Assembly: GCA_022819855.1 (NCBI GenBank)
Contig: JAJEGN010000008.1
Span: forward strand, 183,948 to 247,947
Reading direction: 5' to 3'
Length of the DNA stretch: 64,000 nt
Source: Gammaproteobacteria bacterium
Lineage (GTDB): Bacteria > Pseudomonadota > Gammaproteobacteria > Steroidobacterales > Rariloculaceae
Shown in pieces: positions 33,648 through 36,656 of this stretch; position 1 is the stretch's first letter; each line of letters begins with the position of its first letter. The notes under the pieces were generated by a model. The model had not been told where the DNA came from and ran no database searches. It was given only the letters and a program-made list of their open reading frames with translations. Made by a program: the position numbers and the translations under genes.

Positions 33648-36600
33648 TCAGGCGACGGCCCTGTGCTCGGGCTCCGGCAGCGCGATCTCGCCTGCGCCCC
33701 ACTTCTCGACTTCGATCAGGCAACAGCTTGCGCCCATCGAATGCGCCTTGCGGATCTGCGACCTGCTCGATGACAGCACGTTCACGCAGCCGCCGCGGTC
33801 GGTGGAATTGCCTGGTTCGCCGATGGGGTCGTAGACCGCCGACGAGCCGTAGGCGTGCACGACGCCCCTGAGCATCCGGTGCGTGAGCTTCGCCGCACAG
33901 ATCACGGAGCCGCGCGCGTTGTAGAGCCTTACGAGATCGTGCTCGCGGATGCCGCGCACGGCCGCGTCTTCCGGGTGGATGCGCAGGATCCAGTAGTAGT
34001 AACCGTCGACGAGCACGCGGTGATCGGGAATATCGTTGAGGAAGCTGTCCTTGCCGTCGCCCTGCGTGTGGAAGGTGAAACGCGGATGCGGCGAGACGAG
34101 CTGCAGCGGGAAGTCCTCGTAGCCCCTGGCGTTCGGGCTCTCGGCCGGGCGCTGATACTTGGCGATGCTCGGCCGGTCCGGGCTCAGGGGATCGAAGCGC
34201 TTGAGGCTCTCGCAGTCAAACTCGATCTTGCCGGTCTGCGTCTGGAGCCCTTTCAGATACTCCTCGGAATAATCCGAGGGCAACGGCATCGGCTCCGGCA
34301 CGTCCTTCTTGCGGCCTTCGTAGAACCAGTTCCACGACAACGGCGCCCGGAGCTTCTCCTTCTCGGCGGGGACCACGAAATAGCCGCGGCGTATGAACTC
34401 CTTCCAGGAGATGTGCTTCGGCAGGTCGGAGCCCTCGAACTGCCGCCTGACCCAGCCAAGCTCGCCCACGCCTTCGGTGAAGTAGGTCGCAAGCCCGAGC
34501 CGCTCGCAGATTTTCTGAAAGATCCAGAAATCGGACTTCGACTCGCCGAGCGGCTCGATGCACTTGTGCTGGAAGGTGATGACCCGGTGGTTGAGCTGCT
34601 GCTCACCGTGATGGGCGTAGCCGCCGAGGCCCGCCCACTCGCTGATGTCGAAGCGCTCGAAGTTGGTGCAGGCGGGCAGGATGATGTCGGCGAACTTCGT
34701 GTCCCCCTCGAACCAGATGTTCTGGTTGACCATGAACTCGAGGTTGGGATGCCGGAACATGTTGATGTAACGGTTGCTGTTCGGCATCGTCGCGATCAGC
34801 GAACCGCCGTACTTCCAGAGCATGTGGACCGGCGAAAACCCGGGTTTCGGGTAGGTGATCTTCTGGAACTGCGCCTCGATGCTCTTGCCGTCCCAGGCGT
34901 AGCCTTCGGCCTTGCCTTCCATGATCGCCTCTGGAAGCTGCATGCGCGGGATGACCTGCGTGTTCGTGTTGACCGACGGCAACTGCGGCATGCGCTGATA
35001 TAAGGCCACCGACATCGAGGTCTTGGCGAGATCGCCCGACATGCCGCCGTCGGCGTAACCGGGGAAGTAGAAGTTGAAGTCCAGCGGCGTGCCCCACTGC
35101 AGGTTGCCCATGTTGACGCCGGGCTTGCCGAGCCCCTGCATCGCGATGAGGCAGACCATCGTGCGCGCCCACTGGATGCCTGTCGCGTTCCGGCAGGCGC
35201 CGCCGTGCCCGTTGCCCCAGGCGCCGGCGCCGAGATACGTCTTCTTGCTCGCCCATTCGCGCGCGAGCGCACGCACGTCGCTGGCCGGTACGCCGGTTTC
35301 CGACTCCTGCCACTCGGGCGATTTCGGAATGCCGTCGGAGGTGCCGAGCACGTAATCGCGCCACGTCTCGAACCCGTGCGTATGCGTTTCGATGTAGTCC
35401 TTGTCGTATGTGCCTTCCGTGATCCAGACGTAGGCGATCGCGATGGCGAGCGCCGGGCTCGACGTCGGGCGCGGCGCGATCCACTTGCCGCCGAGCAACT
35501 GGATCGAGTCGTTGTAGTAGGGATCGATGTGCACGAGCTTGATCCCGGCCTCGTTGAGCCACTGCCGCCTGACCGTCCCTTCGAGCGCGCCGTAGGCGCC
35601 GCTGTTGGACTCGGGATTGCTCGACCAGAAGACGACCATCTCGGCTTCCTTGAGGCAGTCCTCGACGGTCCCGTAGGTCTCCGACTGTCCGACCCGCATG
35701 GACCCGCCCCAGTGATGCGCGGCGCCCCAATACCAGCCTTCCCAGCTATCGGGATTGTGGTGCACCTCGGTCATGCCGACGGCATTCTCGAACTTGCGCA
35801 GCGCGCTCAGGTAGTAGCCGATGTTCCCCCAGGCGTGATGCGACGGGTGACTGCAGGCGATCGATCCAGGACCATGCACCGTCTTCTGCCGCTTGATCTC
35901 GTTCGCGACGATGTCGAGCGCCTCGTCCCAGCTTATCCGCTCGTAACCTGAAACACCCCGGTTCTCGGGATTCCGCTCGCCGTTCGGGTCGAAGTCCACG
36001 CGCTTCATCGGGTAGAGAATCCGGTCGGGCGAATAGATCGTCGACTTGACGTTCTGCCCGTGCGGCGCGAGCGAAGTCTTGCGCGGCGGCGTGAATACCT
36101 TGCCCCTGGCCTCGATGCTCCAGGGCTGCGCGTCCTTGTCGTCGAAGCTGATCGGCGTCATGCGCACGATCTTGCCGTCCTTGACATAGACGAACATCGG
36201 ACCGCCATTGGCCATGTTGCAGTAGCGCACCTCGCCGTTGCCTGCATCCGTGCCGTGACGCCAGCGCACGTGCAGCAACTTCTCGAGCGTGAACATGAAC
36301 CAGATGGCCTTCTCTTCAGGTCCATCGAGCGTCATGCTGAAGGACTTCGCCGCATTGACCCTGCCGAGCTGGTCGTCCGGACGCGTAAAGATGCGCACCC
36401 CAAGCCGAGCCGTCTTGAACGTGACGACGACGTCGGGGTTCGGGTGAATGCCGCCCCGTGAGGAGACCTTGCCGTCCCTGATCTCGTAGTAACGGCCCGG
36501 ACCTTCCTTGACCCGGATCTGGGCCGTGAGGTTCTCTTCCCCGAGCCGCGCCCGATACTCGGGATAGCGAGACGCGGTATACCTCATCGCAAACCCGATG

Positions 36601-36656
36601 CCGTACAACAGCACCCGGAACGCGAACATGCTGAGTCTTTCCCCGATTCTGTTCAT
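33648..36656 (-). CDS. Transhydroxylase-like molybdopterin large subunit with N-terminal SCP2-like domain
   Basis: A 1,002-residue fusion. Residues 1-35 are hydrophobic/basic, and about 40-130 look like an SCP2 sterol-carrier fold (RYYEIRDGKVSSRGG, DVVVTFKTARLGVRIF). From about 145 the protein follows the pyrogallol-phloroglucinol transhydroxylase alpha subunit closely: GGPMFVYVKDGKIVRMTP, KVFTPPRKTSLAPHG, SHHAWGN and NPDSWEGWYWG. Counting from GGP, Asp303 and Ser304 fall on transhydroxylase Asp174 and the Mo ligand Ser175, and His273 on His144. No N-terminal [4Fe-4S] cysteine motif is present, as in that enzyme. Known activity moves a hydroxyl between phenols without O2. The SCP2 domain suggests a hydrophobic substrate, which is inference. 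Confidence 0.92.
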   Translation of the reverse strand: MNRIGERLSMFAFRVLLYGIGFAMRYTASRYPEYRARLGEENLTAQIRVKEGPGRYYEIRDGKVSSRGGIHPNPDVVVTFKTARLGVRIFTRPDDQLGRVNAAKSFSMTLDGPEEKAIWFMFTLEKLLHVRWRHGTDAGNGEVRYCNMANGGPMFVYVKDGKIVRMTPISFDDKDAQPWSIEARGKVFTPPRKTSLAPHGQNVKSTIYSPDRILYPMKRVDFDPNGERNPENRGVSGYERISWDEALDIVANEIKRQKTVHGPGSIACSHPSHHAWGNIGYYLSALRKFENAVGMTEVHHNPDSWEGWYWGAAHHWGGSMRVGQSETYGTVEDCLKEAEMVVFWSSNPESNSGAYGALEGTVRRQWLNEAGIKLVHIDPYYNDSIQLLGGKWIAPRPTSSPALAIAIAYVWITEGTYDKDYIETHTHGFETWRDYVLGTSDGIPKSPEWQESETGVPASDVRALAREWASKKTYLGAGAWGNGHGGACRNATGIQWARTMVCLIAMQGLGKPGVNMGNLQWGTPLDFNFYFPGYADGGMSGDLAKTSMSVALYQRMPQLPSVNTNTQVIPRMQLPEAIMEGKAEGYAWDGKSIEAQFQKITYPKPGFSPVHMLWKYGGSLIATMPNSNRYINMFRHPNLEFMVNQNIWFEGDTKFADIILPACTNFERFDISEWAGLGGYAHHGEQQLNHRVITFQHKCIEPLGESKSDFWIFQKICERLGLATYFTEGVGELGWVRRQFEGSDLPKHISWKEFIRRGYFVVPAEKEKLRAPLSWNWFYEGRKKDVPEPMPLPSDYSEEYLKGLQTQTGKIEFDCESLKRFDPLSPDRPSIAKYQRPAESPNARGYEDFPLQLVSPHPRFTFHTQGDGKDSFLNDIPDHRVLVDGYYYWILRIHPEDAAVRGIREHDLVRLYNARGSVICAAKLTHRMLRGVVHAYGSSAVYDPIGEPGNSTDRGGCVNVLSSSRSQIRKAHSMGASCCLIEVEKWGAGEIALPEPEHRAVA

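Follow-up and report, generated by a model that had tools for sequence, protein, structure and literature searches.

A predicted SCP2-like domain fused to a transhydroxylase-type molybdenum enzyme in several bacterial phyla

A molybdenum enzyme of the transhydroxylase type from a member of the Rariloculaceae carries, ahead of its catalytic part, about 135 residues that are predicted from structural models to form an SCP2-like domain. Its gene lies in a 64,000-nucleotide stretch of DNA (the window), and the same fusion was found in 121 of the 127 loci that were read, which come from Pseudomonadota, Chloroflexota, Bacillota, and other groups. We propose that the SCP2-like domain passes a hydrophobic phenol on to the Mo site and that a hydroxyl group would there be added or transferred without O2 before dioxygenases cleave the ring; in our judgement the chances for and against this reading are about equal. 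The original prediction also held that such a fusion is undescribed, and indeed no paper on a protein that joins SCP2 or a sterol carrier to a transhydroxylase or molybdopterin enzyme was found in the open literature, subscription journals being outside the scope of the search.

Domains, active-site residues, and the Fe-S partner

The reference enzyme is the pyrogallol-phloroglucinol transhydroxylase (TH) of Pelobacter acidigallici (PgtL/AthL, PDB 4v4c). Compared with solved structures, the window enzyme scores 981 bits against TH and 245 bits against DMSO reductase, and the transhydroxylase-specific family PF21423 is matched at 95.7 bits vs a curated cut-off of 27. The alignment to the Pelobacter enzyme, together with PF21423, bears out the original prediction of a transhydroxylase-like enzyme, and the catalytic matches named there, His273 and Asp303-Ser304, are invariant in a residue alignment of 98 rows (Table 1). 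Its rows are 67 loci out of the 74 that are complete and fused, P0001, 10 other fused proteins, and 20 unfused proteins that remained after thinning of the best 120 listed for an 838-aa enzyme of Moorella. Ser as the metal ligand, which places these proteins in the Ser-liganded class of Mo enzymes, is taken from the available text of PMC10100899. At the level of sequence, the window enzyme has the traits of the pyrogallol transhydroxylase family, namely PF21423, the Ser ligand with its Asp, His144, Tyr404, and an adjacent small subunit. It is termed transhydroxylase-like, and not filed as a pyrogallol transhydroxylase, because its small subunit lacks the full set of twelve Cys. The full-length predicted structure has a pLDDT of 89.6 and a pTM of 0.91.

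Table 1. Features of the fused enzyme and its neighbours, in window coordinates
Feature	Coordinates	Strand	Remarks
Fe-S small subunit, 281 aa	32771..33616	-	Cys 23, 128, and 131 of the 12-Cys form missing
Fused large (Mo) subunit, 1002 aa	33648..36656	-	Rariloculaceae window
Transhydroxylase-type Mo enzyme domain, residues 143-988	33693..36230	-	
Tyr534 = TH Tyr404	35055..35057	-	97/98 alignment rows
Asp303-Ser304 = TH Asp174-Ser175 (Ser = Mo ligand)	35745..35750	-	98/98 alignment rows
Tyr282 at TH Arg153	35811..35813	-	aromatic in 78/78 fused rows, basic in 19/20 unfused
His273 = TH His144	35838..35840	-	kept in 98/98 alignment rows
Predicted SCP2-like N-terminal domain, residues 1-135 (structure match 7-130)	36252..36656	-	predicted structure and profile comparison
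Divergent second bis-MGD Mo enzyme	36977..39094	+	ORF opens at 36746
Cupin protein	39206..40066	-	kept in L148 at 96%
Gallate dioxygenase (LigB-LigA fusion)	40377..41642	-	NF009904, 683 bits vs cut-off 412; L148 97%
HpcH/HpaI aldolase-family ORF (true start uncertain)	41802..43022	-	family search
MetE-like (Meth_synt_2) protein	42868..43971	-	kept in L148 at 94%
Two-domain VOC (extradiol dioxygenase-like) protein	44097..45002	+	kept in L148 at 96%

The N-terminal domain is probably a remote relative of SCP2, and the link becomes clear only by profile-profile and structure comparison. Single-sequence searches, and profile searches against PDB sequences, gave no credible match, and a Pfam search with the N-terminus of the window protein itself found no family, PF02036 included, even at an E-value limit of 10. 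By hhalign, the profile of the N-terminal region matches SCP2 (PF02036) with an E value of 3.5e-6 and a probability of 87.6, the best control reaching an E value of 0.01, and a structure comparison of the N-terminal model, run with controls, likewise matched the SCP2 fold. The SCP2-like fold of the original prediction is thus upheld as a prediction; a direct Pfam match, which had been the suggested check, was absent at E<=10, and profile-profile similarity above controls was present in its place. In the full-length model, pLDDT of the domain is 83-96 by ten-residue blocks. A first structure model, built on 18 rows with a mean column identity of 84%, was poor apart from the N-terminus (pLDDT 43.3). 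The 50 Foldseek matches listed for it were filled by Mo enzymes, and SCP2 rows were brought out by a second-look aligner. The 50 matches listed for the full-length model were again Mo enzymes; such masking can occur and is no argument against SCP2.

The first helix of the modelled window protein, H2-30, is long and rich in hydrophobic residues. At 36 N-terminal positions, hydrophobic residues are kept in at least 85% of the 98 rows. Median identity to the window over 117 loci is 0.40 for the N-terminal domain and 0.65 for the enzyme part, and the faster divergence of the former could, from sequence comparison, reflect relaxed constraint or varied ligands. The segment is missing in the Pelobacter enzyme and in the unfused clade, which excludes that it is a leader of all family members.

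A residue difference in the catalytic part accompanies the fusion. The position of TH Arg153, which adjoins Tyr152 and which we take to lie within the active site, is occupied by Tyr in 71 and Trp in 7 of the 78 fused rows, and by Lys, Arg, or His in the unfused ones, with one exception among the 20.

The small subunit encoded next to the fused gene is of the TH type, scoring 225 bits against 4v4c_B over residues 1-277. Twelve Cys are present in the TH small subunit and likewise in the five truly unfused loci checked (L100, L153, L154, L155, and L159); the other five of ten subunits labelled unfused are partners of fused enzymes that are cut or have lost the domain (L092, L113, L118, L121, and L149). 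Beside long fused enzymes (n=101), position 128 is Trp in 93, Tyr in 1, and Cys in 7, and position 131 is Asp in 94 and Cys in 7. The Cys pair 128/131 is hence missing in 94 of the 101 partners and present in all five truly unfused ones, and Cys23 and Cys144 are kept in 26 and 24 of the 101, respectively. The alignment leaves out L101, which is from a deltaproteobacterial bin. Thinning of the small subunits to 80% identity left 68 with Trp-Asp, one with Tyr-Asp, and 10 with Cys-Cys, some of these ten being partners of unfused paralogues. The seven fused loci with a 12-Cys partner (L096, L097, L099, L103, L104, L106, and L110) come from Dehalococcoidia, Moorella, deltaproteobacterial or Syntrophobacterales bins, and one further bacterial bin. 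By the usual ferredoxin-motif pairing, Cys 23, 128, 131, and 144 are presumably the four ligands of one [4Fe-4S] cluster. With this pairing, the missing Cys pair makes it likely that most fused enzymes carry two Fe-S clusters instead of three. A lost cluster would weaken the electron path, which would favour a redox-neutral transfer.

Distribution and descent of the fusion

The motif rule was not satisfied in nine loci. Judged by their tblastn start, L080, L150, and L151 are fused, and the remaining six of the 127 comprise four that are cut at contig ends (L092, L113, L121, and L149), L118, in which the domain is lost, and the unfused L159. A scan of species genomes gave 573 relatives; among the best 80 of these, 78 have the domain and the other two are cut by contig ends. 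By record names, the hosts of these best 80 are mostly Alpha- and Betaproteobacteria, and 'Deltaproteobacteria' bins, a Dehalococcoidia bin, and Moorella are also represented. The homologues listed as matching the N-terminal domain number 18, with a length of about 1000 aa in all but one, which has 639 aa. PF21423 was found in 61 of 296 genomes of the window's order and in a single genome, the window's own, of an even phylum sample of 398. The fused gene also occurs on plasmids of Burkholderia, Paraburkholderia, Cupriavidus, Ensifer, and Salipiger.

The unfused enzymes form a group of their own, and the best 120 proteins listed for the 838-aa Moorella enzyme span 764-844 aa. For an unrooted FastTree phylogeny, 144 rows were reduced to 48 at 78% identity, with the Pelobacter enzyme left out. 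The 13 truly unfused rows make up one side of a branch with 100% support, and a single gain or loss of the fusion at this branch is therefore likely, as far as the sequences tell. On the fused side, the domain is missing only in L118, besides L092, whose 'unfused' tree label reflects truncation at a contig end. L118 is a plasmid locus of Sinorhizobium terangae (about 7400-8100), in which the upstream frames are without the SCP2-like domain and the enzyme core and operon are kept, so the domain may be dispensable. Both forms can also coexist: in L153, L154, and L155, the genes for a fused and an unfused enzyme are arranged head to head with about 190 bases between them, and each has an Fe-S subunit of its own.

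Gene neighbourhoods

In the window, the genes are arranged in the order Fe-S subunit, fused enzyme, second Mo enzyme, cupin, gallate dioxygenase, aldolase-family ORF, MetE-like protein, and VOC protein. A relative of the same genus, L148, has the genes from VOC to Fe-S in identical order at 90-98% identity, except for the aldolase-family gene, which has no counterpart in the L148 stretch. The nearest solved relative of the second Mo enzyme is acetylene hydratase (355 bits). Its family was found in 11 of the 127 loci, in 10 of them within 6 kb of the fused enzyme; this count omits L153-L155, where the match is the unfused paralogue. Catechol dehydroxylases are closest to acetylene hydratase according to the available text of PMC7028382, so a dehydroxylase role of the second Mo enzyme is a lead. 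Elsewhere in the window, a second ring-cleavage gene, for homogentisate 1,2-dioxygenase (189-1544, + strand; 635 bits vs cut-off 511), is followed by TRAP transporter genes (1541-4483, + strand). A 1347-aa ORF (28513-32556, - strand), flanked by the Fe-S subunit gene on one side and a ferredoxin-like gene on the other, may be an insertion, since the counterparts of these two genes are adjacent in L148.

For the other loci, neighbour genes were called by codon usage in place of longest-ORF-first calling; an antisense gene opposite the Fe-S subunit in 20 loci was rejected as an artefact of the latter. An Fe-S subunit lies within the locus in 63 of the 68 loci with room for it. Four of the five exceptions (L047, L056, L060, and L086) are operons of HgmA, FAH, the enzyme, and a P450, an arrangement seen in Rhodospirillales. 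Of 126 loci, 38 have a gene of the ring-cleavage type within 6 kb, vs 1 of 20 control regions of the same order, and 17 have an FAH neighbour, again vs 1 of 20; these contrasts are biased and descriptive only, because the profiles were built from the test loci themselves. If only loci with 4 kb available to either side are counted, 28 of 75 have ring-cleavage-type neighbours. Where a VOC dioxygenase family member is present, it lies upstream on the same strand in every case (15/15), within 210 bases in 12. On four plasmids (L114, L115, L116, and L119), VOC, FAH, and acyl-CoA synthetase genes lie beside the fused enzyme, and three of these also have OmpW or another outer-membrane transport protein. 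L117 has VOC, FAH, and an outer-membrane transport protein, and an acyl-CoA synthetase of that kind is missing. A SAR116 locus has a BphC/HsaC-like dioxygenase near the enzyme, scoring below the cut-offs of those models. A TorD-type (Nitrate_red_del) chaperone family occurs near the fused enzyme in eight loci (L125, L137, L138, L140, L141, L152, L156, and L157); in the window, no match to it lies within 6 kb of the enzyme.

The original prediction had pointed to sterol or quinone genes as possible companions. Family search of window genes assigned none of those it covered to sterol or quinone biosynthesis, and the family-annotated neighbours included no gene of the quinone-biosynthesis or steroid pathways save the HsaC-like match in SAR116; readings based on quinone biosynthesis or steroids were set aside.

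Proposed function and its alternatives

Pyrogallol transhydroxylase is an enzyme of anaerobic fermentation, with a structure solved for one enzyme, and P. acidigallici is a strict anaerobe. The fermentative role of its transhydroxylase is covered in the available text of PMC10100899. TH and the fused enzymes have in common the domain order of the Mo subunit, His144, Asp174-Ser175, and Tyr404, and a small Fe-S subunit; TH differs in having no SCP2-like domain, Arg153 in place of Tyr or Trp, and a 12-Cys Fe-S subunit. The unfused AhtL-like clade (for example P0115, Moorella sulfitireducens, 838 aa) has the same catalytic residues and PF21423 at 47-51% identity to the window enzyme, and differs in the same three features (no N-terminal domain, a basic residue at Arg153 in 19/20, and a 12-Cys partner in 5/5).

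In the mechanism that we propose, the SCP2-like domain would capture a hydrophobic phenol and hand it to the Mo site, a ring hydroxyl would there be added or moved without O2, and neighbouring dioxygenases would then cleave the hydroxylated ring. Substrate binding by the SCP2 fold is likely by analogy with an alkylsulfatase and proteins of the Ubi pathway. The alkylsulfatases SdsA1/SdsAP combine a catalytic and an SCP2-like domain on one chain (PMC5426288, available text); they differ in that the SCP2-like domain is C-terminal and the enzyme has a metallo-beta-lactamase fold and is no molybdoenzyme. UbiT, an SCP2 lipid-binding protein, works with UbiU-UbiV in O2-independent ubiquinone hydroxylation, and a UbiT-UbiU fusion is reported in two genomes (PMC6747719, available text). 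These proteins differ from the fused enzyme in being separate chains and Fe-S hydroxylases with a biosynthetic role. Both precedents favour a carrier role, and by analogy a greasy substrate is plausible for the fused enzyme. Operons with acyl-CoA synthetase, FAH, VOC, and outer-membrane transport genes fit a hydrophobic substrate, as does the BphC/HsaC-like dioxygenase in SAR116. The gallate dioxygenase of the window argues partly against it, gallate being a small, soluble acid that needs no lipid carrier, and a gallate-related ring with three hydroxyl groups is the likely phenol in the window's lineage. Also weighing against the proposal are the missing Pfam match of the N-terminus, the faster divergence of the domain, its loss in L118, and the presence of ring-cleavage-type neighbours in only a minority of loci.

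The same gallate dioxygenase, adjoining the window enzyme and kept in L148 at 97%, keeps alive a rival explanation in which the SCP2-like domain serves assembly, dimerisation, or docking to the membrane, and the substrate is an ordinary polyphenol that is small and soluble (pyrogallol, gallate, or hydroxyhydroquinone, for instance). It gains from the domain diverging faster than the enzyme and being lost in L118, and the long hydrophobic-rich first helix is also in its favour. Against it stand the operons in which acyl-CoA synthetase and FAH genes are joined by those for outer-membrane transport proteins, and the aromatic residue at TH Arg153, which is specific to fused enzymes. The 36 conserved hydrophobic positions are such as a cavity needs, although any folded core needs the same. 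On balance, we consider this explanation rather unlikely.

As regards the chemistry, the Cys pair missing from most partners suggests hydroxyl transfer rather than oxidative hydroxylation. A water-using oxidative hydroxylase akin to RhL (resorcinol hydroxylase), in which the SCP2-like domain would bind a quinone or lipid electron acceptor, is in our view improbable. RhL and PgtL do belong to one Ser-liganded group, and RhL hydroxylates resorcinol as electron donor (PMC10100899, available text); moreover, an Fe-S subunit accompanies the enzyme in nearly all loci with room, and the full 12-Cys partner is kept by seven fused enzymes. Loss of the Cys pair in the other 94 of 101 would nevertheless weaken the electron wire, and family annotation of the neighbours brought up no membrane quinone subunit. 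That the fused enzymes are relatives of S/N-oxide reductases, with aromatic neighbours by coincidence, is very hard to credit: names given in source records, 'trimethylamine-N-oxide reductase' among them, and matches to the bisC/TorA/DmsA models of NCBIfam point that way, but these matches fall far under the cut-offs (best 326 vs 1017 bits), and the PF21423 and TH scores given above oppose it.

A wider form of our proposal is possible, and we put it forward tentatively. The fused enzymes may be a widespread unnamed family that uses its SCP2-like domain to draw greasy phenols from the membrane and adds or relocates a hydroxyl without O2 ahead of dioxygenases in O2-using bacteria, one Fe-S cluster having been dropped as the reaction would be redox-neutral. 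Resorcinolic lipids, alkylcatechols, and ring-opened biaryls or steroids would then be candidate substrates.

Owing to the SCP2-like domain, the nature of the substrate is open to experiment, and the naturally occurring partners with two or three predicted Fe-S clusters allow hydroxyl transfer to be compared with oxidative hydroxylation. The fused enzymes form a sister family that spans several phyla and whose genes, in some lineages, lie near those for O2-dependent ring cleavage. If the proposed function is true, Mo-based, O2-independent ring hydroxylation would also feed aerobic aromatic catabolism.
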